Shown: positions 35,680 to 48,720 of the stretch, one piece after another
Layout of the letters: each line of letters begins with the position of its first letter
Position numbering within the stretch: the first letter of the stretch is position 1
Source: Hamadaea flava
GTDB taxonomy: Bacteria; Actinomycetota; Actinomycetes; Mycobacteriales; Micromonosporaceae
Direction: 5' to 3'
Length of the DNA: 64,000 nucleotides
Assembly: GCF_024172085.1 (NCBI RefSeq)
Contig: NZ_JAMZDZ010000001.1
Span: 7,688,001-7,752,000 of the forward strand
Position numbers and translations under genes: made by a program
The notes under the pieces: generated by a model
Told to the model about the DNA's origin: nothing
The model's database searches: none
The model's input: only the letters and a program-made list of their open reading frames with translations

Positions 35680-36504
35680 ATGAAGATCTTCGTCTCGCTG
35701 GATCTGGAGGGCGTCGCGGGCATCGTCGACTGGCAGCAGTGCGTCGCCGACGGCGACGACTACGCGGTCGGCCGCGACCTTGCGCTCGGCGAGGTCAACG
35801 CCGCGATCGAGGGCATCATCGCGGCCGGCGGGACTGAGATACTGATCAACGACGCTCATTCAGTGATGCGCAACCTGCCGCCGTCGCTGCTGGCCGGTCG
35901 GGCGGCGTACCTCTCCGGCCGAGTCAAGCCGCTCTACATGATGCAGGGCCTCGACCACTCGTTCGACGCGATCGTCTTCCTCGGCTACCACTCGGCCGCC
36001 GGAACACCGGGGATCCTCTCGCACACCTACAACCCCAAGGCCATCGCCGACGTACGCCTCAACGGCGTTCCGACCGGGGAAGCAGGCTTGAACGCTCTCG
36101 TCGCCCAGCATTTCGGAGTTCCGGTCGCGGTCATCACCGGCGATCAGTACGTCGGCCCGGAAGCCGAACCGTTCTGCCCTGGCGTGGCCACGATCGTCGT
36201 CAAGGAATCGATCAGCCGGTACGCGGCACGCAATCTCCACCCCGACGCGGCCCGTGAGTTGGTGCGCGACGGCGTACGCGAGGCGCTGGCCCGGCGGGGC
36301 GAACTGGTGCCGCCCCAGATCACCCTGCCCGCCACGATCGAGGTGCGGTTCACCTCGCCGGACATGGCCGAGCAGGCAACCTGGATCCAAGGCGTACGAC
36401 GCCTGGACTTCGTCACGGTGGCGTTCACAGGAGACGAACCGCTGGCTCTCTTCCAGGCGTTCATCGCGCTCGTTTACCTCACTCGTTCACTGGTCGAGAG
36501 CTGA
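35680..36504 (+). CDS. M55-family D-aminopeptidase (DppA-like)
   Basis: A 274-aa zinc peptidase of the DppA/M55 family. The N-terminal metal site is FVSLDLEGVAGI (Asp/Glu near 8-10), with a His in NDAHSVMRNL near 60, GYHSAAGTPGILSHTY with further ligands near 104-115, and EAGLNALVA near 131. The family releases D-amino acids from D-Ala peptides, often from peptidoglycan turnover. It has no signal peptide and stands alone, with no dipeptide transporter beside it. It lies 0.65 kb from the DUF4127/amino-sugar block, and a link with cell-wall recycling is possible but unproven. Confidence 0.88.
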   Translation: MKIFVSLDLEGVAGIVDWQQCVADGDDYAVGRDLALGEVNAAIEGIIAAGGTEILINDAHSVMRNLPPSLLAGRAAYLSGRVKPLYMMQGLDHSFDAIVFLGYHSAAGTPGILSHTYNPKAIADVRLNGVPTGEAGLNALVAQHFGVPVAVITGDQYVGPEAEPFCPGVATIVVKESISRYAARNLHPDAARELVRDGVREALARRGELVPPQITLPATIEVRFTSPDMAEQATWIQGVRRLDFVTVAFTGDEPLALFQAFIALVYLTRSLVES

Positions 36505-37150: not shown

Positions 37151-38848
37151 TCAGATCAGCTTCAGGCTCGTCGAGACCTGGAGTTCCGTCTCGAACAGGC
37201 GCGGCCACGGCAGGTGCACCGTCACCGAATCGAGGCTGGCGACGCGGGCGGTGACCGGGTGGCCGAGCAGGTAGCCCACCAGAACCCGGCGGCCGCCGAA
37301 GTATCGGTCGAAGTAGTCCTGGGTGACCGGCGTCAAATGGTCGACCACCCATTGGTTCATCGGCGCGTACTGGTCGTCGGTCAGGTTGTTGGTGTTCCAG
37401 CCCTGTGACTGCCCGTACGCGATGGCCGCCGGCTGGACGTCGTTCTTCCAGCGGTCGTCGATGATGAAGCGCTTGAGCAGGTACTCCACATGCGCGTTGG
37501 CGGCGGTGAGCGCGGTTGCCGGGGTGATGCCGTGGCGCAGCGGCTGCCGGGTCGACTCCAGGAAGGCATACCGGGACAGACCTTCGGCCAGGGCGAGGCC
37601 GAGCGAGTTGCCGCCGGTGTTCCAGCCGGAGTAGCCGAGCAGGTCCAGCAACGGCAGGCGGTCCTGCATCCGCGTCACGAGGTCGTGGTCGGCCTTGTTG
37701 ACGATGACCGGGTCGTCCACGATCACGCCCTTGCCTTGGGCCAGCAGTTCGGCGGCCTGGGCGACGAACTTGTCGAGATCGCCGCCGCGGTCGGCGCCGG
37801 CCGCCGAGGGCGTGTTCACCAGCAGGTGGACGGGAGACGCTGGATCAACCTTCAAGCCGAGCGCCGCCAGATGCCGCGTGATGTTGTCCGCGAACGGGAT
37901 GTCTTCCAGCGCCGCGGTCCACGCGCTGCCGTTGACGCCGGCGTACTGGACGGCCACCGACGGGTGCACGTTCAGCTTGGTCAGCACATAGCGCGCGACC
38001 AGGAGGGCGTCGATCTCGTCGGCGCCTGGGAAGATCTGCACCCGGTCGCCGACGCCGAGCTGGGCCACGAGCTGTTCGAGCTGAACGCGCTCGGCCCGTT
38101 CCAGCCCGTAGGGCGCGGTGTCGTCCTCGCCGAGAACGAGGTCGTCGATCGTGCCGTCGGCCACCCACCAGACCATCTGCTCGTTGATGTCGTGGTTGCG
38201 TTGCCGCGCCGCGAGGTAGTCGGCGAGGACCTCGTCCGGGATCTGGGCGCGCTTGGCGTCGAGCTGCGCCTGGTACTGGGTCATTCCCAGGTTGACGACC
38301 TGGTCGTAGAGGATCGCCCATTCGCGTACGAGGGTGGCGTAGTCGGTGCCGCCGACGGTCAGGCCGGTCAGGGCGAGACGCTGGATGGTGTCGAAGACAT
38401 AGAGCGGCTTGTCCGGATGGGCCTGGCGGACCGCCTTGATCGGCTGGATGTGAGACCGGGCGTCGGCCTCGGACATCGCCGCCGTACGCGAAGCGACCAG
38501 CCCGCCGTACGCGAGCATGCTCGTCGACACCACGTACGCGTCGGCGTCCTTCTGGCTGGTGAGCCACTGGCCGACGGCAACGGGGTCGCCGGGTGTCGTG
38601 AAGCGGCCGAGTAGCTCGCGAGGCGGCGTCGTGACCGCCAGCCCGGCGAGGGACGCCGTGGCGGCCGGTGCGAGCAGGTTGACTGGTCGGTCGTCCAGCG
38701 GTACGAGCGCGACGCGGGCCAGCGGGCGGGCTTCGCCGGGGCGCGCGGCCGACGGTCCGCTCGCGGAGGCGGGAGGCGCGGCGGCCAGTACGGCGACGGC
38801 GAGCGTCGCGGCACCGGTCATCGCGCCGAGGGATCGGGTGATGCGCAC
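37151..38848 (-). CDS. Secreted DUF4127-family protein
   Basis: 565 aa from the chosen GTG. A signal peptide (about 1-30, ...AAPPASASG) precedes a DUF4127 domain, recognised by its opening ARVALVPLDDRPVNLLAP, by VSTSMLAYGGLVASRTA near 100, by the EDDTAPYGLERAE and FPGADEIDALLVARYV segments (about 240-285), and by YSGWNTGGNSLGLALAEGL near 400. The function of DUF4127 is unknown. GTG 38848 was chosen over ATG 38863 because GGAGGA lies between them, correctly spaced. It is transcribed from a promoter overlapping dre-type operators and divergent from the FAD-oxidoreductase/ABC-importer operon, so it probably acts on the same extracellular amino sugar or glycan. Confidence 0.85.
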   Translation of the reverse strand: MRITRSLGAMTGAATLAVAVLAAAPPASASGPSAARPGEARPLARVALVPLDDRPVNLLAPAATASLAGLAVTTPPRELLGRFTTPGDPVAVGQWLTSQKDADAYVVSTSMLAYGGLVASRTAAMSEADARSHIQPIKAVRQAHPDKPLYVFDTIQRLALTGLTVGGTDYATLVREWAILYDQVVNLGMTQYQAQLDAKRAQIPDEVLADYLAARQRNHDINEQMVWWVADGTIDDLVLGEDDTAPYGLERAERVQLEQLVAQLGVGDRVQIFPGADEIDALLVARYVLTKLNVHPSVAVQYAGVNGSAWTAALEDIPFADNITRHLAALGLKVDPASPVHLLVNTPSAAGADRGGDLDKFVAQAAELLAQGKGVIVDDPVIVNKADHDLVTRMQDRLPLLDLLGYSGWNTGGNSLGLALAEGLSRYAFLESTRQPLRHGITPATALTAANAHVEYLLKRFIIDDRWKNDVQPAAIAYGQSQGWNTNNLTDDQYAPMNQWVVDHLTPVTQDYFDRYFGGRRVLVGYLLGHPVTARVASLDSVTVHLPWPRLFETELQVSTSLKLI

Positions 38849-38887
38849 GGATCCTCCGTTCATGGGGGTGCATACCGGAGTTTCTGT

Positions 38888-38959
38888 GGTCTAGTCCTAG
38901 AAGAAACAGGTCTAGACCTAAGGCGACCGACGCTAGACCCGGATTTCCGGCGAAGTCAA
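38888..38959 (-). promoter_or_regulatory. DUF4127 promoter with three dre-type operators at 21-bp spacing
   Basis: On the minus strand TTGACT (38954-38959) and TAGCGT (38930-38935) form a promoter with an 18-bp spacer. Three operators overlap or follow it: GGTCTAGTCC (38888-38897), the perfect dyad AGGTCTAGACCT (38908-38919) and the half site CTAGACC (38933-38939). Their CTAG centres at 38892.5, 38913.5 and 38934.5 are exactly 21 bp apart. The core matches the DasR consensus ACTGGTCTAGACCACT. Confidence 0.82.
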
Positions 38960-38993
38960 GCTGTGCTCCGAGTCACAGGCACCGAAGATGGCC

Positions 38994-39053
38994 TTGACAA
39001 GGGCAGTTTCGCTGACGACTGTGGTCTAGACCTGAGCAGATGAGGTCTAGAAC
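38994..39053 (+). promoter_or_regulatory. FAD-oxidoreductase operon promoter with two dre-type operators
   Basis: TTGACA (38994-38999) with a 17-bp spacer precedes a weak -10 GACTGT (39017-39022). GGTCTAGACC at 39023-39032 lies over the expected start site and GGTCTAGAAC at 39044-39053 just downstream. Their centres are again exactly 21 bp apart. Repressor bound here would block the operon that contains its own gene. Confidence 0.82.
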
Positions 39054-39067
39054 TCTGGGGGCCAATC

Positions 39068-40678
39068 GTGGTGGAAATGTCGAGCGAAGTCCTCGTCGTC
39101 GGCGGCGGACTGGGCGGGGTCGCGGCCGCCCTCGCGGCCCTGCGCCGCGGGCGGCGCGTGCTGCTGACGGAGGAGTACCCGTGGCTCGGCGGCCAGCTCA
39201 CGAGCCAGGCGGTCCCGCCGGACGAGCACCCCTGGGTGGAGCGCTTCGGCGTGACGGCGAGCTACCGGGCCCTGCGCGAGGGCATCCGTGAGCACTACCG
39301 GCGCTGGTACCCGCTGACCGCGGCGGCTCGCGCGCGGCCAGACCTCAACCCGGGCGCCGGCTGGGTCAGCAAGCTGTGCCATGAGCCCCGAGCCGCGGCG
39401 GCCGTCATCGACGCGATGCTCGCCCCGTACGAGAGCGGCGGCGCGTTGCGGATCCTGCGCGGCTACCGCCCGGTGGCCGCCGACGTCGACGGCGACCGCA
39501 TCAGCGCGGTCACCTTGCGGCACGTTCACACCGGCGCCCAGCTGACCGCGACCGCGCCATACATTCTGGACGCCACCGAGGCCGGCGATCTGCTGCCGTT
39601 GGCCGGGGTCGAGTACGTCACCGGATCCGAGGCGCGCTCCGAGACCGGCGAACCGAGTGCGCCGATCGAGGCCCAGCCCGCCAACTGGCAAGGTCTGTCC
39701 TGGTGCTTCGCGCTCGACCACGTCGACGGCGACCACACGATCGACCGCCCGGCGGCGTACGCCCGCTGGCGCGACTATCAGCCCGACTCCTGGCCCGACC
39801 GGATGCTGTCGCTGAGCTGGCCCGACCCCCGCACACTGGAACCGGTGACGGGCGCGTTCGTCCCGAACCCCGGCGACGATCCGCTCAACGTGGTGGCGGA
39901 CCAGAGCCAGGTGGCCAGCGGGCCCAACCTGTGGACCTACCGGCGGATCGTGGCCCGCGGGCTGTTCACCGAGGGGGCCTACGCCAGCGACATCACGCTC
40001 GTCAACTGGCCGCAGATGGACTACTTCGTGCGGCCGGTCATCGACGTGCCCGAAGACGAGGCCCGGCTCGCGTACGCCGAGTCCCGTGAGCTGTCGCTGT
40101 CCCTGCTCTACTGGCTGCAAACGGAGGCACCCCGCCCGGACGGGGGCACCGGCTTCCCCGGCCTGCGCCTGCGCGGCGATGTCGTGGGCACGGCCGACGG
40201 CTTCGCCCAGGCCCCCTATCTGCGCGAATCCCGGCGGATCCGGGCCCTGACCACGGTCGTCGAGCAGGACCTCTCCCTGGCCGTACGCGCAGACCGGGGC
40301 GCTGTGTCCTATCCGGACTCGATCGGCATCGGCATGTACCGCATCGATCTGCACCCGACCACCAACGGCGACACCTACCTCGACGTCGGCTGCTGCCCCT
40401 TCGAAATTCCGTTGGGCGCACTGATTCCGCAGCGGACCACCAACCTGCTGGCCGCCGCGAAGAACATCGGCACCACCCACATCACCAACGGCTGCTATCG
40501 GCTGCACCCGGTCGAGTGGAACGTCGGGGAGGCGGCCGGCGCGCTTGCCGCCTACTGCCTCGACAACGCCACCACCCCTACAGCGGTGCACACCGATGCC
40601 GGTCTCCTCGACGACTTCCGGGCCGGCCTGGCCCGCGAGGGCGTCGAACTCGCCTGGCCCCGGATCACGGGCTACTAG
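39068..40678 (+). CDS. FAD-dependent oxidoreductase (FAD_oxidored, PF12831-type)
   Basis: 536 aa, no signal peptide. The FAD-binding Rossmann motif is EVLVVGGGLGGVAAALAALRRGRRVLLTEE at 6-35. YILDATEAGDLLPLAGVEYVTG near 160-180 and the C-terminal NLLAAAKNIGTTHITNGCYRLHPVEWNVGEAAGALAAYCL (about 467-505) match the FAD_oxidored family often found in polysaccharide-utilisation loci. The reaction is not established; oxidation of a sugar or glycoside is the natural guess. It is the first gene of an operon with a sugar ABC importer, GntR regulator, ROK kinase and NanE-like epimerase, under dre-type operators. GTG 39068 or ATG 39077 could be the start. Confidence 0.85.
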   Translation: MVEMSSEVLVVGGGLGGVAAALAALRRGRRVLLTEEYPWLGGQLTSQAVPPDEHPWVERFGVTASYRALREGIREHYRRWYPLTAAARARPDLNPGAGWVSKLCHEPRAAAAVIDAMLAPYESGGALRILRGYRPVAADVDGDRISAVTLRHVHTGAQLTATAPYILDATEAGDLLPLAGVEYVTGSEARSETGEPSAPIEAQPANWQGLSWCFALDHVDGDHTIDRPAAYARWRDYQPDSWPDRMLSLSWPDPRTLEPVTGAFVPNPGDDPLNVVADQSQVASGPNLWTYRRIVARGLFTEGAYASDITLVNWPQMDYFVRPVIDVPEDEARLAYAESRELSLSLLYWLQTEAPRPDGGTGFPGLRLRGDVVGTADGFAQAPYLRESRRIRALTTVVEQDLSLAVRADRGAVSYPDSIGIGMYRIDLHPTTNGDTYLDVGCCPFEIPLGALIPQRTTNLLAAAKNIGTTHITNGCYRLHPVEWNVGEAAGALAAYCLDNATTPTAVHTDAGLLDDFRAGLAREGVELAWPRITGY

Positions 40679-40711: not shown

Positions 40712-42001
40712 ATGAAGCGCCTGCGCTGGATGTCCGGCGTACTCGCGGCTGGTCTGGCCCTCGCGGCCGCCGGCTGCGGCGGCGGTGACAAGGCCGAAGA
40801 CGACAACGGCCCGGTCTCGCTGCGGATGACGGTCTGGACGGCGAACAAGGACCAGCTGGCCCTGTTCGACCAGATTGCCGCCGACTACAAGAGCACCCAC
40901 CCGAACGTCACCGTGAAGTTCGACGCGCTGCCGTTCGACAGCTACACCACGGCGCTGACCACCCAGGTGGCCGGCGGCAACCCGCCGGACCTGGCGTGGA
41001 TCTTCGAGAAGGACGCCCCCGACTTCGTCTCCTCCGGCGCGCTGACCGACCTGACCCCGACCCTCAAGGGCACGGCCGGCTACGACTACGACGACCTCGC
41101 CCCGGCCACCACGAAGCTGTGGACCGCCGGCGACAAGCTCTACGGCTACCCGTTCTCGACGTCGCCGTTCGTCGTGTTCTACAACGCCGACATGCTCACC
41201 AAGGCCGGCGCGCAGACCCCCGACCAGCTGGTCGCGGCCAACCAGTGGACCTGGACCGCCGCCGAGCAGGCGGCCGCGAAGGTGCCGGCCGCCGAGCCCG
41301 GGAAGTTCGGCCTGGTGATCCGCGACTTCGACTACAAGGTCTGGGACAACCTGGCCTCCCTGTGGGCGGGCTACGGCGCGGCTCCGTGGTCGGCCGACGG
41401 CAAGACCTGCCAGTTCACCAGCCAGCCGATGATCGACGCGATGACGTTCCTGCACAACGCGGTCTACACCGACAAGGCGATGCCGCCGCCCGGCACCGCG
41501 GCGGACTTCTTCGCCGGCGACTCGGCGATGACTGTCACGCAGATCTCGCGCGCCGCCACCCTCAAGGACGCCAAGTTCAAGTGGGGCGTCGCTCCGCTGC
41601 CGGCCGGCCCCGCCGGCGCGCAGCAGCTGTTCGGGCAGGCCGGCATCGGCGCCTTCGGCAAGGGCAAGCACCCGCAGGCGGCCGCGGACTTCCTCGCCTT
41701 CTTCAGCAACCCGGCCAACTCGGCGAAACTGGCCCAGTACTTCCCGCCGCCGCGTACGTCGCTGCTGAACGCGGCCAGTCTGAAGGCAGCCAACCCGCTG
41801 CTGACCGCGGAGCAGCTGGACAGCGTCGTCGTCAACGGCATCAAGAACGGCGCCGTGAAAGCCAGCCACCTCGGGTACGCCAAGATCGACGAGGCCGTCC
41901 GCGCCGCGATGGACACCTACTACCAGCCGGGAGCCGACGTTCCCGCCGCGCTCGCCGGCGTCTGCAAGGCCGTCGAGCCGCTGTTGAGCACGGGTAGCTG
42001 A
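40712..42001 (+). CDS. ABC sugar importer, solute-binding lipoprotein
   Basis: 429 aa. A lipoprotein signal (LALAAAGCGGG, lipobox Cys near 21) precedes a cluster-B (family 1) solute-binding protein: ITVW-like LRMTVWTANKDQLALFDQIAADYKSTHPNVTVKFDALPFDSYTTAL, then GGNPPDLAWIFEKDAP and GYPFSTSPFVVFYNADMLTKAG. It binds a mono- or oligosaccharide at the cell surface for the two permeases that follow. GGAGGACAAGG lies before the ATG. The ATPase is not encoded here; actinomycete importers of this type commonly share MsiK. Confidence 0.92.
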   Translation: MKRLRWMSGVLAAGLALAAAGCGGGDKAEDDNGPVSLRMTVWTANKDQLALFDQIAADYKSTHPNVTVKFDALPFDSYTTALTTQVAGGNPPDLAWIFEKDAPDFVSSGALTDLTPTLKGTAGYDYDDLAPATTKLWTAGDKLYGYPFSTSPFVVFYNADMLTKAGAQTPDQLVAANQWTWTAAEQAAAKVPAAEPGKFGLVIRDFDYKVWDNLASLWAGYGAAPWSADGKTCQFTSQPMIDAMTFLHNAVYTDKAMPPPGTAADFFAGDSAMTVTQISRAATLKDAKFKWGVAPLPAGPAGAQQLFGQAGIGAFGKGKHPQAAADFLAFFSNPANSAKLAQYFPPPRTSLLNAASLKAANPLLTAEQLDSVVVNGIKNGAVKASHLGYAKIDEAVRAAMDTYYQPGADVPAALAGVCKAVEPLLSTGS

Positions 42002-42006
42002 GAGCC

Positions 42007-42972
42007 ATGAGCGTCTCGACCGCATCCGCGGCCGACACCCAGGGCGGCGGCCGGGGACACCGGCCGCCGCCCGGGCGGGGCCGCCGGGACCACCGGATGA
42101 CCGCCCGACGGCGCGACGCGGTCGCCGGTTACCTTTTCGTCGCACCGCAACTACTGGGCTGGGCCGCGTTCGTCGGCTGGCCGGTCGTCGCGGTGGTCTG
42201 GTACAGCCTGCACAGCTGGAACCTGCTCGCCGGCACCTTCGACTGGGCCGGGCTGGCCAACTACCGGCAGCTGGCACACGATCCGGCGCTGGGGGCGGTG
42301 CTGCGCGCGACGCTGTTCTTCTCCGTCGGACTGGTCGTCCTCAACCTCGCCCTGGCGCTGCTGCTGGCCGTGCTGCTCAACCAGCGGCTACGGGGCACGG
42401 CCGTGTTCCGCACCATCTTCTTCTCCCCAGTCGTGGTCTCCCTCGTCGCGTGGGCGATCGTCTCCGGCACCCTGCTGCAGGGCACCGGCGGCATCAACGC
42501 ACTGCTGTCCAAGGTCGGCATCACGGGACCGAACTGGCTGCACGAGCCGGGCGCGGCCCTGATCGCCGTCATCGTCACCCAGACGATCAAGAACGTCGGC
42601 CTCAACATGGTGCTGTTCCTGGCCGCGCTGCAAGGCGTACCGGAGGAGTTGTACGAGGCGGCCGCGCTCGACGGGGCGTCGCGGTGGCGGACCTTCTGGC
42701 GGATCACGTTCCCCCTGATCACCCCGACCGTACTCCTCACATCGATCATCACGGTGGTGGGTTCGCTGCAGGTCTTCGCACCGATCCAGGTGCTCACGGC
42801 CGGCGGCCCGGGCAACTCCACCAACGTCCTCGTCTACGACCTCTACAAGCAGGGTTTCGTGGCCCACGACCTGAGCTACGCCAGCACCCTGGGGGTCCTG
42901 CTGTTCGTCATCGTGCTGGCACTGACCGCGATCCAGTGGCAGATGCGCAAGAAGTGGGTCGTCAATGAGTAG
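42007..42972 (+). CDS. ABC sugar importer permease 1 (MalF/UgpA-like)
   Basis: A 321-aa, six-helix permease with an N-terminal Gly/Arg-rich cytoplasmic extension. The EAA loop reads EELYEAAALDGASRWRTFWRITFPLI (about 216-241). The gene starts 5 bp after the solute-binding protein stop and overlaps the second permease by 8 bp, so it is translationally coupled to both. Imports the sugar delivered by the lipoprotein. Confidence 0.92.
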   Translation: MSVSTASAADTQGGGRGHRPPPGRGRRDHRMTARRRDAVAGYLFVAPQLLGWAAFVGWPVVAVVWYSLHSWNLLAGTFDWAGLANYRQLAHDPALGAVLRATLFFSVGLVVLNLALALLLAVLLNQRLRGTAVFRTIFFSPVVVSLVAWAIVSGTLLQGTGGINALLSKVGITGPNWLHEPGAALIAVIVTQTIKNVGLNMVLFLAALQGVPEELYEAAALDGASRWRTFWRITFPLITPTVLLTSIITVVGSLQVFAPIQVLTAGGPGNSTNVLVYDLYKQGFVAHDLSYASTLGVLLFVIVLALTAIQWQMRKKWVVNE

Positions 42973-43864
42973 CAAGAGCGAGAGCGGCAAGAGCAACCAA
43001 GACCGCGCCAATCACCGCAGCCGCGCGCTGTCCCTGCCACGCTGGGCGAAGATCGCCCTGTACGCGCTCATGACCGTGCTGGCGATCCCGTTCCTGTTCC
43101 CCACGTGGTGGATGGTGACCGCCTCGCTGTCACCGGCCAACGACATCTACAGCCAATCGCCGAAGCTGTTCCCGACACATCCGCTGTGGTCGGACTACAA
43201 GCAGGTTTTCGAGCTGCAGCCGTTCGCGCACCAGTACGTGAACAGCCTCTACATCGCCGTCCTGGTCACCGCCGGCACCATGGCGGTCTCGGCCCTGTCC
43301 GGGTACGCCTTCGCCCGCATCCGGTTCCCGGGGGCCGACGCGCTGTTCTTCGTGGTGCTGACCGGCATGCTCGTGCCGGCCGAGGTGACGATCGTGCCGC
43401 TGTTCCGGATGGTGCAGTCGCTTGGCCTCATCAACACCCACTGGCCGCTGATCATCATCCCGATCTTCGGCGCGCCCAGCGTGCTCGGCACCTTCGTCAT
43501 GCGCCAGTTCTTCCTGGCTCTGCCGGCCGAACTGGAAGAGGCCGGCCGCTTGGACGGACTGGGCCGGTTCGGGTTGTTCCGCAGCATCGCGCTGCCGCTC
43601 GCCCGGCCGGCGCTGGCGGCGGTGGCGATCTTCACGTTCCTGCGTACGTGGGACAGCTATCTGGAACCGCTCGTCTACCTGTCCGCCAAGGACAAGTTCA
43701 CCCTGCCGCTCGCCCTGACCCAGTACACCGACGCGTACGGCGGGAACATCTGGAATATTCAGCTCGCCGCGACGACGCTGACGGTCCTGCCCGTACTAGC
43801 GGTGTTTATCATCGCGCAACGCCAGTTCGTGGCCGGCCTCGCCCAGACAGGGTTGAAGGGATGA
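42965..43864 (+). CDS. ABC sugar importer permease 2 (MalG/UgpE-like)
   Basis: A 299-aa, six-helix permease. The EAA loop is AELEEAGRLDGLGRFGLFRSIALPLARPALA (about 180-210), and LVPAEVTIVPLFRMVQSLGLINTHWPLIIIP is typical of the second permease in these systems. It starts inside the first permease gene and its stop overlaps the ATG of the GntR regulator gene (ATGA). Confidence 0.92.
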   Translation: MSSKSESGKSNQDRANHRSRALSLPRWAKIALYALMTVLAIPFLFPTWWMVTASLSPANDIYSQSPKLFPTHPLWSDYKQVFELQPFAHQYVNSLYIAVLVTAGTMAVSALSGYAFARIRFPGADALFFVVLTGMLVPAEVTIVPLFRMVQSLGLINTHWPLIIIPIFGAPSVLGTFVMRQFFLALPAELEEAGRLDGLGRFGLFRSIALPLARPALAAVAIFTFLRTWDSYLEPLVYLSAKDKFTLPLALTQYTDAYGGNIWNIQLAATTLTVLPVLAVFIIAQRQFVAGLAQTGLKG

Positions 43865-44634
43865 GCGCGCCGACGGCCGCCAACGGCCAGGTGGGAGCAG
43901 TGTCGATGGAACAGACCGATGGACCGGCGGTCGCCAAGCACGCCTGGTTGCGCCAGGTGCTGCGCCAGGAGGTCGCCGAGCGGATGGCCCCGCACGAAAT
44001 GCTGCCGCCGGAACGGGAACTCGCCGCCCGCTTCGAGGTCAGCCGGATGACCATCCGCCAGGCGTTGCGCGCGCTCACCGACGACGGCCTGATCTACGCC
44101 GTACGCGGGGTGGGCACCTTCGTCACCGAGCCCAAGGTGTCGAAGGACCTGGCACTGTCCTCCTTCTCCGAGGACATGCGCGCACGCGGCCTGCGACCCG
44201 GCTCCCGGGTCATCGCCGCCGAAGCCGTCGACGCCGACGCGGCCATCGCCAAGGACCTCGGCATCGAGCCCGGTGCGGCCGCGTACCGGATCGAGCGACT
44301 GCGCTCCGCCGACGACATCCCGGTCGCGCACGAGCAGTCCTACCTGCCGGCCCGGCTGTTCCCCAAACTGCTCGACCAAGACCTGGACGGCTCCCTGTAC
44401 GAGCTCATGGAACGCCGGTACCGCATCCGCGTCGAGCGCGCCCAGCAGACCACCAGCGCGGTCAATCTGGGCAAGCACCTCGCGGACCTGCTCGGCGTGC
44501 CGGCCCGCACGGCCGCGCTGCACGTGCGGCGCATCGGCATCGACAACCAGGGCCGCATCGTCGAGCGCGCCGACACCCTCTACCGCGGTGACCGCTACGA
44601 CTTCTCCGCGACCATCCGACGAGTACGCCGATGA
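43861..44634 (+). CDS. GntR-family (HutC/UTRA) regulator, DasR-like
   Basis: 257 aa. The winged HTH is at about 30-95 (RQEVAERMAPHEMLPPERELAARFEVSRMTIRQALRALTDDGLIYAVRGVGTFVTEP), followed by a UTRA effector domain (about 110-250) with DIPVAHEQSYLPARLFPKL and DTLYRGDRYDFSATI. DasR, the best-known relative, binds ACTGGTCTAGACCACT and is released by glucosamine-6-phosphate. The dre-type sites at 38888-39053 and 46788-46972 fit this protein, as does its place in the operon between importer and kinase. Whether it is the DasR orthologue or a local paralogue cannot be decided from this window. Confidence 0.9.
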   Translation: MSAPTAANGQVGAVSMEQTDGPAVAKHAWLRQVLRQEVAERMAPHEMLPPERELAARFEVSRMTIRQALRALTDDGLIYAVRGVGTFVTEPKVSKDLALSSFSEDMRARGLRPGSRVIAAEAVDADAAIAKDLGIEPGAAAYRIERLRSADDIPVAHEQSYLPARLFPKLLDQDLDGSLYELMERRYRIRVERAQQTTSAVNLGKHLADLLGVPARTAALHVRRIGIDNQGRIVERADTLYRGDRYDFSATIRRVRR

Positions 44635-45569
44635 CGGGCGGACCCGGTCACGATCTGGTTCTCGGCATCGACATCGGCGGCACCAAGACGGCGGTGGCGG
44701 CGGTGGACCGCGACGGGCGGACGTATGCGACCCGCGTCGCACCGACGCCCGCGGCTGAGGGGGCCGCGGCGATCCTGGAGGTCGCGGCGCGTCTGGCCGA
44801 CGAGGTTCGCCACGACGTCGGCGGATCCGTCTCGGCCGCCGGTGTCGGGGCGCCCGGTGTCGTGGACGCCCGGCGCGGAGTCGTCGTCTCGGCCACCGAC
44901 CTGCTCCGCGGATGGGCCGGCACCCCGATCGTGGATCTGCTCTCCCAACGGCTCTGTCTGCCGGTCGCCGTCGACAACGATGTACGCGCGGCCGGCCTCG
45001 GCGAGGCCCGCTACGGCGCCGGCCGTACAGCCGGTTTCGCCGTCGTCGTGGCCGTCGGGACCGGCATCGGCGCGGCGGTGATCCGTGAAGGCGTACTCCT
45101 GCCGGGGTCCTGCGGGGTGGCCGGGCACCTAGGCCACATTCCCGTCCCCGGCACCGGGGACGACCTGTGCTCGTGCGGCCGCAGCGACCACCTGGAGGCA
45201 GCCGCGGCCGGACCGGCGATCCTGCGCGCCGCCCACCGCGCAGGTCTGGCGGCGACCACGACCATCGAAGTGATGGCGCTCGCCGAGACCGATCCCCAGG
45301 CCGCGGCCGTCGTGACGAACGCCGCCACCGTCTTGGGCCGGGCACTTGGCGGTGTGGTGAACCTGCTCGACCCGGACGCGATCGTGGTGGGCGGGGGCGT
45401 CGCCGAGGCCGGCGGAGTGTGGTGGCGGCCGCTGCGCGCCGCTTTCGACGCCGAACTGCTGCCGCCGGCCGCGCCGGCGCTCGTCCCCGCGACCCTCGGA
45501 ACACAGGCGGGCGTCATCGGCGCCGCCACCATGGCCCGCGATCTCGTCAACGGAAGGAACCCGCGATGA
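44631..45569 (+). CDS. ROK-family sugar kinase (amino-sugar kinase-like)
   Basis: A 312-aa ROK protein without a DNA-binding domain. The ATP motif DIGGTKTAVAAVDRDG is at 9-24, and the catalytic Asp lies in VAVDNDVRAAGLGEARYGAG near 112. The zinc site is altered: CSCG is present at 180-183, but the third Cys of the ROK consensus is His187 (CSCGRSDHLE), with upstream His in GHLGHIP. ROK kinases phosphorylate GlcNAc, ManNAc or glucose at O6. The overlapping NanE-type gene makes ManNAc or a related 2-acetamido sugar the likeliest substrate (inference). Confidence 0.88.
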   Translation: MTGGPGHDLVLGIDIGGTKTAVAAVDRDGRTYATRVAPTPAAEGAAAILEVAARLADEVRHDVGGSVSAAGVGAPGVVDARRGVVVSATDLLRGWAGTPIVDLLSQRLCLPVAVDNDVRAAGLGEARYGAGRTAGFAVVVAVGTGIGAAVIREGVLLPGSCGVAGHLGHIPVPGTGDDLCSCGRSDHLEAAAAGPAILRAAHRAGLAATTTIEVMALAETDPQAAAVVTNAATVLGRALGGVVNLLDPDAIVVGGGVAEAGGVWWRPLRAAFDAELLPPAAPALVPATLGTQAGVIGAATMARDLVNGRNPR

Positions 45570-46252
45570 CCGACGCCGCAGCACCAGTGCTGACCGCGAT
45601 CCGAGGCGGCCTGGTCGTCTCCTGCCAGGCCCCGCCCGGCGACCCCCTGCGCGATCCGGAGGTGCTGGCCCGCATGGCCGCCTCGGTGGTACGCGCGGGC
45701 GCGATCGGCGTACGCGTCAACGGCGTCGAGGTCGTCCGCCGGACCCGTGCCCTCGTCAAGACCCCCGTGATCGGGCTCTGGAAGGACGGCGACGAAGGCG
45801 TCTACATCACCCCGACGGCTCGGCACGCACTGGACGTCGCAGCGGCGGGCGCCGACATCGTGGCCGTCGACGCCACGGCCCGACCCCGTCCGGACGGGCG
45901 TACGCTCGCCGACACCGTAGCGGCCATCCATCGGCAGACCGAGGCGCTCGTCCTCGCCGACGTATCGACCGTGGATGAAGGCTTGGCCGCCGTCGACGCG
46001 GGCGCTGACGCGGTCGCCACCACGCTGTCCGGCTACACGGGTCCGGGGACACCGCCGGCCGGCCCGGATCTGGAACTCGTCGCGGCACTGGCGGGCAAAC
46101 TCGGCGTACCCGTGATCGCGGAGGGTCGGATCCACACGCCGGAGCAAGCCCGCGCTGCTCTGGACGCGGGGGCCTGGGCCGTGGTGGTCGGAACGGCGAT
46201 CACCTCTCCCGCGTGGCTGACGGGTCGATACCGGGCCGCGCTGGCGGCTTGA
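45566..46252 (+). CDS. Putative N-acetylmannosamine-6-phosphate 2-epimerase (NanE-like)
   Basis: A 228-aa TIM-barrel protein of the NanE family: LVVSCQAPPGDPLRDPEVLARMAASVVRAGAIGVRVNGVE at 13-52, LWKDGDEGVYITPTARHALDVAAAGADIVAVDATARPRPDG at 72-112, ADVSTVDEGLAAVDAGADAVATTLSGYT at 130-157 and GRIHTPEQARAALDAGAWAVVVGTAI at 190-215. The catalytic Lys/Glu pair expected in NanE corresponds to Lys in LWKDG and Glu in AEGRIHTPEQ. It converts ManNAc-6-P to GlcNAc-6-P. Its start overlaps the ROK gene. It is the last gene of the operon before a spacer. Confidence 0.9.
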   Translation: MTDAAAPVLTAIRGGLVVSCQAPPGDPLRDPEVLARMAASVVRAGAIGVRVNGVEVVRRTRALVKTPVIGLWKDGDEGVYITPTARHALDVAAAGADIVAVDATARPRPDGRTLADTVAAIHRQTEALVLADVSTVDEGLAAVDAGADAVATTLSGYTGPGTPPAGPDLELVAALAGKLGVPVIAEGRIHTPEQARAALDAGAWAVVVGTAITSPAWLTGRYRAALAA

Positions 46253-46319: not shown

Positions 46320-46766
46320 GTGGCCGCACAGGACGAATCCTGGCGCGTAGAAGCCGACGGCGAGTGGCTGGTACGCCATCAGTCTCGGACGATGGCCAAC
46401 GTCCAGCGCCGCTTCAGCCGCATCCTGGTTGCGGGCGACGCCATCAGCAACGCGGAGCTCGGCCCGTTCGGCGGTGCGCCACGGAATCCAAGTCTCCGCC
46501 CGGCGCCTTCGCGCTACGCGGTGATTCGGCATGTCGTCGCAGTGTACGCGTACACGTCGATTCGTCTCATGATCGAGTACTGCCAGCGCTGTGGACGGCC
46601 CATGCAAGAGGCGCACCATGTGGCGACGGTCCGGGCTGACGGCAGGCGACTGTCGCTCGGTGCGGTCCGCAGTTGCCGCAGCTGCAACAGCGATTCGTGG
46701 CTGTTCCGCTCGCACATGCCAGCCGGCGACAAGGCGCGGCGGCAGGCGGTCAAGACCGTCCTCTGA
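46320..46766 (+). CDS. Possible small zinc-ribbon-like protein
   Basis: 148 aa if GTG 46320 is used. The C-terminal half has two Cys pairs, YCQRCGRPMQEAHH and SCRSCNSDSWLF, spaced as in a small zinc ribbon. The N-terminal 80 residues match nothing I recognise and may not be translated; ATG 46569 would give a 65-aa protein containing just the ribbon. No good ribosome binding site precedes either. It is on the same strand as the nanE and GH20 genes, directly before the dre-type operators. It could be a real small gene or a chance frame. Confidence 0.4.
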   Translation: MAAQDESWRVEADGEWLVRHQSRTMANVQRRFSRILVAGDAISNAELGPFGGAPRNPSLRPAPSRYAVIRHVVAVYAYTSIRLMIEYCQRCGRPMQEAHHVATVRADGRRLSLGAVRSCRSCNSDSWLFRSHMPAGDKARRQAVKTVL

Positions 46767-46787: not shown

Positions 46788-46818
46788 GGACTAGACATCT
46801 CGTCGTCAGGTCTAGACC
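46788..46818. promoter_or_regulatory. Pair of dre-type operators, 21 bp apart, upstream of the GH20 gene
   Basis: GGACTAGACA (46788-46797) and the perfect dyad GGTCTAGACC (46809-46818) have CTAG centres at 46792.5 and 46813.5, exactly 21 bp apart, the same phasing as in the 38.9-39.05 kb control region. They sit at the head of a 355-bp spacer before the GH20 gene. Confidence 0.78.
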
Positions 46819-47121
46819 ACAGTGTGCCTTGGCGCGGAATCTTTCGTCACATGTAGACGCTAATATCCCGCTAAAGCGGGCAGCATTCGACGCCTCGCCT
46901 TGACCTCTCGTCGGTCCACGTTCGATGATCCGACGCGACGTCAGCAAGATTCGGCCTGGCCAGGACTAGACCACATTTCACTAGGTACCGGTTGCGTCCG
47001 TCCCGTTCGCTGTCAGGAGTGCATCGCGGCTTCACCGCAGCCTCAACGCCCTCGACTCCGTGCACGTCCTGCCGTGGTCGGCCCGTACCCAGGCCACACG
47101 GTTCTGCTAGGAGAGGCTTCC
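46819..47121 (+). promoter_or_regulatory. GH20 leader region with one more dre-type operator and a promoter candidate
   Basis: A third operator, GGACTAGACC, lies at 46963-46972. A candidate promoter is TTGACC (46900-46905) with an 18-bp spacer to GATGAT (46924-46929), placing the operator about 30 bp into the transcript. A small hairpin CCCGCT-AA-AGCGGG is at 46867-46880. No gene other than the GH20 start is seen. The untranslated leader would be about 185 nt. Confidence 0.6.
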
Positions 47122-48720
47122 ATGACGACCGACAGTCCATTGTCCCGCCGCGCCTTCCTCGGCTCGGCTACCGCCGCGTTCGCCGCCGCCCCGTTCCTGC
47201 TCGGCGCGCCCCAGGCGGCAGCCGGTTCCCTCACGGTCAACGACCGTTCACTGCCCGCCAGCCTGTCCGTGATTCCCCGCCCGGCCCTGCTGACGCCGAC
47301 CGGCGGGCCCCCTTTTCAGCTCACGCCGCACACCGCGATCGTGGTACGCCATCCCGATCCGGCCGCCCGGCAAGCGGCGGAGCAGTTCGCGGAGCTGCTG
47401 CGCCGTTCCACCGGATTCCCGCTGCCTGTGCAGGATGAAAGCGGTAGCCCGCAGGCCATTCTGTTCGCGGTCAGCGACGAGCCGACCGGAGCGGAGGGAT
47501 ACCGGCTTGACGTGACCCCCGGCCTGGTGGCGATTCGGGCCACCGCGGTGGCGGGGCTGCACTACGGCGCGCAGTCCCTACGCCAGCTGCTGCCGCCCGA
47601 GACCGAGTCGACCACCGTCCAGGCCCGGCCCTGGCCGATCCCGGCCGTGCACATCGCCGACGAACCGCGCTTCGTGTGGCGCGGGGCGATGCTCGACGTG
47701 GCTCGGCATTTCTTCGGCGTGACCGAGGTCAAGCGCTTCATCGACGTGATCGCCGCCTACAAGATCAACCGCTTGCACCTGCACCTGAGTGACAGCCAGG
47801 GCTGGCGACTGGAGATCCCCAGCTGGCCGCGGCTGGCCACGTACGGCGGCAGCACCGAGGTCGACGGCACCCCGGGCGGCTACTTCACCCAGGCGGACTA
47901 CCAGGAGATCGTCGCGTACGCGGCTCAGCGCTTCATCACGGTGGTGCCGGAGCTGGACATGCCCGCCCACGTGAACGCCGCTCTGGCCAGCTATCCCGAG
48001 CTGAACGAGGACGGTGTCGCGCCGCCGCTGTACACCGGATACAAGGGCATCCAGGTCTCGCTGGCCATCGACAAGGACATCACCTACCGGTTCGCCGAGG
48101 ACGTCCTCACCACGGTCGCCGGTCTCACGCCAGGCCCATACCTGCACATCGGCGGGGACGAGGCCCTCGCCACCACCGCCGCCGACTACCGGCTGTTCAT
48201 CAACCGGATCCAGCAGATCGTCCAGACGCTGGGCAAGCAGGTGGTCGGCTGGGAGGAGATCAACACCGCCGACCTCGCCCCGGGGACGCACGTGCAGTAC
48301 TGGGCCGACGTCAAGAAGGCACGCGCCGCCGTCGCCAAGGGCGGCAAGCTCATCATGTCGCCGTGCAAGCAGGCATACTATGACCAGCAGTACAACGCGG
48401 ACACCCCGATCGGGCTGAACTGGGCTGGTTACACCGACGTCCAGGACGCCTACAGCTGGGACCCGGGCAGCTGTATCGCGGACGTGAGCGAGACGGATGT
48501 ACTCGGTCCTGAAGCACCACTGTGGACCGAGAACATCCGCACCGACGCCGACGTCGAGTTCATGACGTTGCCCCGGATGCCCGGACTCGCCGAGCTCGGC
48601 TGGTCACCGGTCGCCGGGCGCTCCTGGGACGAGTACCGCTACCGCCTCGCCGCGCAGGAACCGCGCTGGACCGCCATGGGCGTCGGCTACTACCGCTCGA
48701 CCGAGGTGCCGTGGCAATGA
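47122..48720 (+). CDS. Tat-exported GH20 beta-N-acetylhexosaminidase
   Basis: 532 aa. A twin-arginine signal (SRRAFLGSATAAFAAAPFLLG) leads into a GH20b N-terminal domain (about 45-165) and the GH20 TIM barrel (about 170-515). The catalytic Asp-Glu pair is in YLHIGGDEALAT near 345, and the substrate-assisted mechanism needs the acetamido group. It removes terminal GlcNAc/GalNAc from chitin oligomers or peptidoglycan fragments outside the cell. GGAGAGG precedes ATG 47122; upstream in-frame codons were rejected because the Tat signal starts here. Three dre-type operators upstream put it in the amino-sugar regulon. The stop overlaps the esterase ATG. Confidence 0.92.
   Translation: MTTDSPLSRRAFLGSATAAFAAAPFLLGAPQAAAGSLTVNDRSLPASLSVIPRPALLTPTGGPPFQLTPHTAIVVRHPDPAARQAAEQFAELLRRSTGFPLPVQDESGSPQAILFAVSDEPTGAEGYRLDVTPGLVAIRATAVAGLHYGAQSLRQLLPPETESTTVQARPWPIPAVHIADEPRFVWRGAMLDVARHFFGVTEVKRFIDVIAAYKINRLHLHLSDSQGWRLEIPSWPRLATYGGSTEVDGTPGGYFTQADYQEIVAYAAQRFITVVPELDMPAHVNAALASYPELNEDGVAPPLYTGYKGIQVSLAIDKDITYRFAEDVLTTVAGLTPGPYLHIGGDEALATTAADYRLFINRIQQIVQTLGKQVVGWEEINTADLAPGTHVQYWADVKKARAAVAKGGKLIMSPCKQAYYDQQYNADTPIGLNWAGYTDVQDAYSWDPGSCIADVSETDVLGPEAPLWTENIRTDADVEFMTLPRMPGLAELGWSPVAGRSWDEYRYRLAAQEPRWTAMGVGYYRSTEVPWQ

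Follow-up and report, generated by a model that had tools for sequence, protein, structure and literature searches.

Repeated dre-like palindromes occupy a divergent intergenic region of 204 bp in Hamadaea flava, a soil actinobacterium. The questions raised by this locus are which genes the palindromes control, which protein reads them, and what their regular spacing means. The DNA studied is a stretch of 64,000 nt, called here the window, and all site positions are window coordinates (Table 1). The dre consensus is quoted in PMC6097792 as A(G/C)TGGTCTAGACCA(G/C)T. Four strong dre-like sites were found in the intergenic region, each matching GGTCTAGACC at 9 or 10 of 10 positions. An earlier note on this DNA had placed dre-type operators between the two divergent genes, and this was borne out by these matches. 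The note had counted five operators; four are where it put them, but the fifth, at 38930, matches at 7/10 and is a half-site. Start-to-start distances are 21 bp, two turns of the DNA, for 38888/38909 and for 39023/39044, with 114 bp from 38909 to 39023, and the weak half-site also lies 21 bp from operator 2 (38909) in the window. Two dre cores exactly 21 bp apart and upstream of a gene were found three times at the locus. The third pair (46788/46809), absent from the earlier note, is located upstream of the GH20 gene and 3′ of the operon. In the nearest named relative seen, Hamadaea tsunoensis DSM 44101 (L042, taken to be genome G061; FAD protein 93% identical), operators 1, 2, 3 and 4 are identical at 10, 10, 10 and 9 of 10 positions. 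Judging from these sequences, the region is a real, conserved and well-formed operator region, its function being presumed.

Table 1. Features of the H. flava locus, in window coordinates.
Feature	Position	Strand	Match to dre	Remarks
DUF4127 protein (PF13552)	37151..38863	-		Pfam; apparently secreted (signal-like start by eye)
dre-like operator 1, GGTCTAGTCC	38888..38897		9/10	DUF4127 leader; sequence read directly
dre-like operator 2, GGTCTAGACC	38909..38918		10/10	21 bp from operator 1; immediately downstream of the candidate DUF4127 -10
Weak half-site, ACGCTAGACC	38930..38939		7/10	CTAG at 38933; single good half
Candidate -10 TAGCGT, DUF4127 promoter	38930..38935	-		Putative; distance to the -35 is 18 bp in the two species alike
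Candidate -35 TTGACT, DUF4127 promoter	38954..38959	-		By eye; 6/6 conserved in H. tsunoensis
Candidate -35 TTGACA, FAD-oxidoreductase operon promoter	38994..38999	+		Putative; 6/6 conserved
Candidate weak -10 GACTGT, FAD operon	39017..39022	+		Putative; touches operator 3
dre-like operator 3, GGTCTAGACC	39023..39032		10/10	Sequence read directly
dre-like operator 4, GGTCTAGAAC	39044..39053		9/10	21 bp from operator 3
FAD_oxidored protein (PF12831), operon gene 1	39068..40678	+		Pfam
ABC importer: solute-binding protein and two permeases	40712..43864	+		Pfam
DasR/NagR-like GntR/HutC repressor, GntR + UTRA	43861..44634	+		Pfam; presumed to read the sites
ROK-family protein, probable sugar kinase	44631..45569	+		Pfam
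NanE, putative N-acetylmannosamine-6-phosphate epimerase	45566..46252	+		Pfam; exceeds the NCBIfam cut-off
dre-like site, GGACTAGACA	46788..46797		8/10	Upstream of GH20
dre-like site, GGTCTAGACC	46809..46818		10/10	21 bp from 46788
Single dre-like site, GGACTAGACC	46963..46972		9/10	160 bp upstream of the probable start codon of GH20
GH20 glycoside hydrolase, probable beta-N-acetylhexosaminidase	47123..48720	+		Pfam

By its protein families, the gene set looks like one for the uptake and breakdown of amino sugars. When seven proteins, including a second GntR protein of the genome (L086), were run against NCBIfam, NanE alone scored above a cut-off; no model did so for the ROK-family protein. 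For GH20, the Pfam run used a longer frame (46900-48720) and the start codon was picked by eye. The sequence GGTCAAGACC is present at 46748, 40 bp upstream of the 46788/46809 pair. Near DUF4127, a gene for an M55 D-aminopeptidase is found at 35680-36504; a CTAG-cored dre-like site was looked for beside this gene and not found.

The promoter elements were assigned by conservation and by eye, since a strict sigma-70 scan of the control region found no promoter. The spacer between the candidate -35 and -10 of the FAD operon is 17 in the window and 18 in H. tsunoensis. Under this assignment, transcription would start at about the first operator of each pair, the second operator being some 21 bp downstream. 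TTGACA and TTGACT each stand upstream of both sites of their pair, and not between the sites as in the chitinase form described below.

Taken as a whole, the locus is best explained as the operator region of a gene set for amino-sugar catabolism, with a DasR/NagR-type repressor encoded within the set, and we consider this explanation likely. Two back-to-back promoters, one for DUF4127 and the other for the FAD oxidoreductase-ABC importer-GntR-kinase-NanE operon, would lie between the two dre-like pairs. The first palindrome of each pair would stand at or just past the -10, and the second 21 bp deeper in the transcribed leader. When the sugar is absent, a pair of GntR dimers bound to the same DNA face would block initiation and escape at each promoter, and the third pair (46788/46809), together with the single site at 46963, would repress GH20 likewise. 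The repressor would be released by a phosphorylated amino sugar that the operon produces (GlcNAc-6P, GlcN-6P or ManNAc-6P). The promoter elements, the binding by the local GntR, the inducer and the contact between dimers are the parts of this scheme that we infer.

Spacing was compared in Streptomyces-like genomes (the genus of G431, a label that is itself inferred). Two GGTCYAGACC cores 10-40 bp apart are present in 132 of these 199 genomes. Among the matches listed, which come from 86 genomes and are counted with second-strand duplicates left out, 76 of 137 tandem pairs are at 21 bp, 27 at 16, 18 at 26, 5 at 22, 4 at 20 and 7 at other distances. Counted as distinct pair sequences, again among the matches listed, 28/62 are at 21 bp. 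Pairs with gaps of 31-60 bases were found in only 4/198 Streptomyces-like genomes. The earlier note had taken phased dre arrays to be unusual, and this view does not hold, 21 bp being the commonest tandem spacing in the 199 genomes. With a stricter pattern, 394 genomes of the class gave 9 pairs in 8 genomes, at spacings of 36, 36, 21 (the pair of H. flava itself), 34, 10, 21 (G431, Streptomyces-like), 28, 33 and 15 bp. Outside the Streptomyces-like genomes, 21 bp is not the dominant spacing; it is common in one group but no general rule. A looser pattern, CTAGNCC-N0-30-GGNCTAG, was tried on 300 genomes of the family and rejected; it matched in 169/300, and many of the matches listed were unrelated GC-rich palindromes. 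No statement of a 21-bp dre spacing was found in the literature consulted.

The genes beside the recurrent pairs were identified by Pfam in a hand-picked subset, with L197 (22 bp) and L199 left out. CBM2-GH18 chitinases were found beside 21-bp pairs (3/3 tested), a GH19 chitinase beside a 16-bp pair (1/1, L160), and CBM4-GH18 chitinases beside 26-bp pairs (2/2, L150 and L155). LPMO_10 was found in all 10 proteins tested, which represent 9 distinct promoters, as L138 and L200 share one. Five of these nine promoters hold their pair at 21 bp, three at 20 and one at 24; their spacers have diverged and contain no TTGAC. Streptomyces-like pairs that are half a turn off were seen at 16 bp (L140, L160) and at 26 bp (L136, L150, L154, L155, L158), and L156 has a pair at 27 bp.

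These pairs bear on whether neighbouring dimers touch. Cooperative multi-dimer repression may be at work here, as a distance of 21 bp fits it; the chitinase promoters at 16 and 26 bp put their sites on opposite faces of the DNA, which argues against a universal need for same-face contact. A competing explanation of the spacing, to which we give slightly less than an even chance, is that 21 bp is set by promoter geometry and provides two independent blocking positions, with neither contact nor cooperativity between the dimers. It agrees with the Streptomyces-like GH19 and CBM4-GH18 promoters, which have TTGAC, on one strand, between their sites and whose pairs at 16 and 26 bp are half a turn off 21. 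It accounts less well for the three pairs of the studied locus, which all hold 21 bp, and for the 8/9 distinct LPMO promoters that keep 20-21 bp despite diverged spacers and the lack of TTGAC between their sites.

The Streptomyces-like 21-bp pairs are probably the published direct repeats of chitinase promoters. In Streptomyces, these chitinase repeats are 12 bp long. They are described as short direct repeats in which single-base changes deregulate chitinase production (Delic 1992, Ni and Westpheling 1997 and Colson 2007, via the review PMC6097792). The same review states that DasR binds promoters of chitin genes with one or more dre. As in those promoters, repeated dre-type elements lie over the candidate promoters of the Hamadaea locus, and they are spaced at 21 bp, the commonest distance between two cores in the 199 Streptomyces-like genomes. 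The differences are that the chitinase pairs have TTGAC between the sites, whereas here both sites follow the candidate -35; that their core is mostly GGTCCAGACC, compared to GGTCTAGACC here; and that other genes and another regulator protein are involved. Double operators in a divergent region are also known from HutC-family divergons, where double sites at a near-constant distance have been read as co-operative (PMC4494728). There, a common pair serves both operons, or each operon has one site, whereas here each promoter apparently has its own pair. The dre-like pairs described here thus look like a further example of a known layout, not a new type of switch.

The presumed reader, the GntR protein encoded at 43861-44634, has the winged helix-turn-helix and UTRA domains (PF00392, 1e-18; PF07702, 4.8e-44). 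Among solved proteins it is closest to YvoA/NagR, at 147 bits, followed by DasR at 137 bits. The residues Arg38, Arg48 and Gly69 of NagR, which contact DNA, correspond to R52, R62 and G83, and its ligand contacts Arg133, Arg135 and Glu145 to R146, R148 and E158 (roles in NagR from PMC4333415); counterparts were read by eye from the alignment of the local GntR and the letters then checked. NagR (YvoA) of Bacillus subtilis thus shares with it the Arg, Arg and Gly that read DNA as well as the two arginines that bind phosphate, and is the best solved match, but it is a Firmicute regulator of nagP and nagAB. Native dre sites are described as imperfect palindromes (PMC4333415). DasR of Streptomyces coelicolor likewise belongs to the GntR/HutC family with UTRA and shares the dre consensus and the amino-sugar context, but it falls outside the clades of the local GntR and of L086. 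In a tree of 29 rows, whose outer part is poorly resolved with modest support and in which DasR is a long branch, the local GntR groups with its counterpart in H. tsunoensis (96%) and with sequences from further genomes of the family; the L086 clade is separate, and the solved DasR lies outside both. The local GntR does not group with Streptomyces DasR in that poorly resolved part, so DasR orthology is not supported by the tree; given its nearest solved relatives and the kept residues, the protein should nevertheless work like DasR/NagR. The earlier note had named this protein as the likely reader, and two results support the choice: the counterparts of Arg38, Arg48 and Gly69 are kept, and the local GntR co-occurs with dre-like pairs in 2/4 Hamadaea genomes searched, neither being found in the other two (G039, G080).

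A second DasR/NagR-like GntR of the same genome, L086 (C1:410948-411649; 47% identical to the local GntR), has the same R, R, G letters, its gene is preceded by a GGACTAGACC site, and it could read the same sites. It is conceivable, although we think it unlikely, that L086 is a global dre regulator and the main reader here, with the local GntR serving another operator or fine-tuning. Its scores to solved DasR and YvoA (~143 and ~139 bits) are similar to those of the local GntR, it has the dre-like site in front of its own gene, and its clade occurs in the two genus members in which the studied operon was not found. These two genomes, G039 and G080, have an L086-type protein without the local GntR, yet no dre-like 21-bp pair was found in them. 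Moreover, H. tsunoensis keeps the paired sites, yet the local GntR was the sole hit there at E <= 1e-55, in a search that scored 8/67 first-look candidates and may have missed a copy. Elsewhere in the genome, an exact single GGTCTAGACC is present at C1:646980 (L163), between two divergent frames and ~3.4 kb from another GntR of the DasR/NagR type (L087, 37% identical); this is possibly another dre-type regulon.

The earlier note had described all neighbouring sites within a cluster as phased at 21 bp. The phasing is true in the window, and in H. tsunoensis both strong pairs are at 21 bp, but the weak middle core is 22 bp from operator 2 there because of a one-base indel. The 21 bp between operators 1 and 2 is kept although the spacer matches at 5/11 only. 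The operator 3/4 pair is uninformative on spacing length, as its spacer is identical in both species (11/11). The locus was found in two species only, and an unchanged spacer length in one short stretch is weak evidence of selection. In the H. tsunoensis genome, the two main pairs were the only dre-like CTAG pairs found. It is improbable that all five sites are functional and that the region forms one five-dimer array, even though the weak core is conserved at 10/10 in H. tsunoensis and weaker extra half-sites have been described near operators of the GntR family, HutC included (PMC4494728). The 38930 site matches at only 7/10, it stands at 22 bp in H. tsunoensis, and the conservation of its core is explained by the candidate -10 at a constant 18 bp from TTGACT. 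It is probably, for the most part, the -10 region of the DUF4127 promoter. We therefore count four operators and not five of equal rank: the fifth, a half-site, overlaps the candidate -10, and its 21-bp phase is not conserved.

Within one mismatch, GGTCTAGACC occurs at 307 places in the H. flava genome (8,864,410 bases), and the control, the pattern read backwards, at 710. Exact copies number 6, three of them at the studied locus (38909, 39023, 46809). The pattern CTAG-N17-CTAG is found 10 times in the genome and 4 times at the locus, which leaves three pairs of fair-to-good sites, as the fourth uses the weak 38933 core. Four of the other six genomic pairs were scanned and none had two dre-like cores; in a repeated element carrying such a pair (L003/L004), one core reaches 8/10. 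A 25-base string, CTAGACCCGAAGCGGAGTGATCTAG, has three identical copies in the genome (C1:4565206, 6269557 and 7644667) and occurs once in another genus (G021:C151:2793); it appears to be a conserved element present in several copies and to have no relation to the dre pairs. A chance cluster of CTAG palindromes with no regulatory role has nothing in its favour beyond the shortness of the motif and is extremely improbable, given a Poisson probability of ~1e-10, at the genome rate, for four sites within 204 bp, and the conservation in H. tsunoensis of 49/50 bases of the five 10-mers, against 62/83 identical positions between the clusters (38940-39022).

Other FAD genes were examined in the best 80 of 581 loci. 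The earlier note had suggested looking for CTAG cores 21 bp apart upstream of such genes in related genomes; H. tsunoensis has them, but in the other 79 of these 80 loci no dre-like site was found within 500 bp upstream of the FAD match. Within 3 kb upstream, L038 alone adds one lone site, and in the DNA available for the 80 loci (1.3-8 kb upstream) the two pairs of H. tsunoensis were the only dre-like pairs. As a common operator upstream of FAD in these loci, only GC-rich palindromes were found. Ten further Hamadaea FAD loci (L095-L104, ~1.5 kb on each side) gave no dre-like pair, only one lone CTAG-cored site (L103) and one GGTCCAGACC (L099). The orthologous FAD control regions could not be used as a test of spacing because the dre-like sites are missing there.

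In 70 of the best 80 loci, the frame directly upstream of FAD has a LacI-type C-terminal motif, as detected by a regular expression devised for this analysis. Of nine upstream frames run on Pfam, eight are LacI-family regulators and the ninth (L005) matches no family. At the Hamadaea locus the GntR gene is inside the operon; in other actinobacteria the gene directly before the operon is mostly of LacI type, and dre is absent. It therefore looks as though the regulator was exchanged here, a LacI-type neighbour giving way to a GntR with dre. Relatives of the local GntR (50-53%) are found in NanE-GntR-FAD clusters of six genomes of the family (L172-L177), where a scan of 16-17 kb revealed no dre-like pair. 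In another genus, L171 has a cluster with NanE and a related GntR, and palindromes 20 bp apart before the first gene. This near-pair (L171:6209-6238) consists of CAGGTCATACCTG and CAGGTCTAGACCTG, palindromes of 9 and 10 bases that are 20 bp apart start to start.

The locus records what seems to be a joint change of regulator family and operator in one operon. It may be, though we hold this only tentatively and as the less probable case, that a transferable 21-bp dre module was taken along when a DasR/NagR-like GntR took over a formerly LacI-controlled amino-sugar operon in Hamadaea; the module would be the two-turn pair seen at chitinases and LPMOs of Streptomyces-type genomes, favoured because adjacent dimers touch at that distance. 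If so, each of the divergent promoters would have an independent switch built from a cooperative dimer of dimers, and the half-turn classes at 16 and 26 bp would represent a different, non-contacting mode. Natural pairs are found at 16, 20, 21, 22, 24 and 26 bp in related genomes, so the choice between cooperativity and promoter geometry is directly testable, and the Hamadaea locus offers a small system for asking what makes a 21-bp distance between dre sites so frequent.
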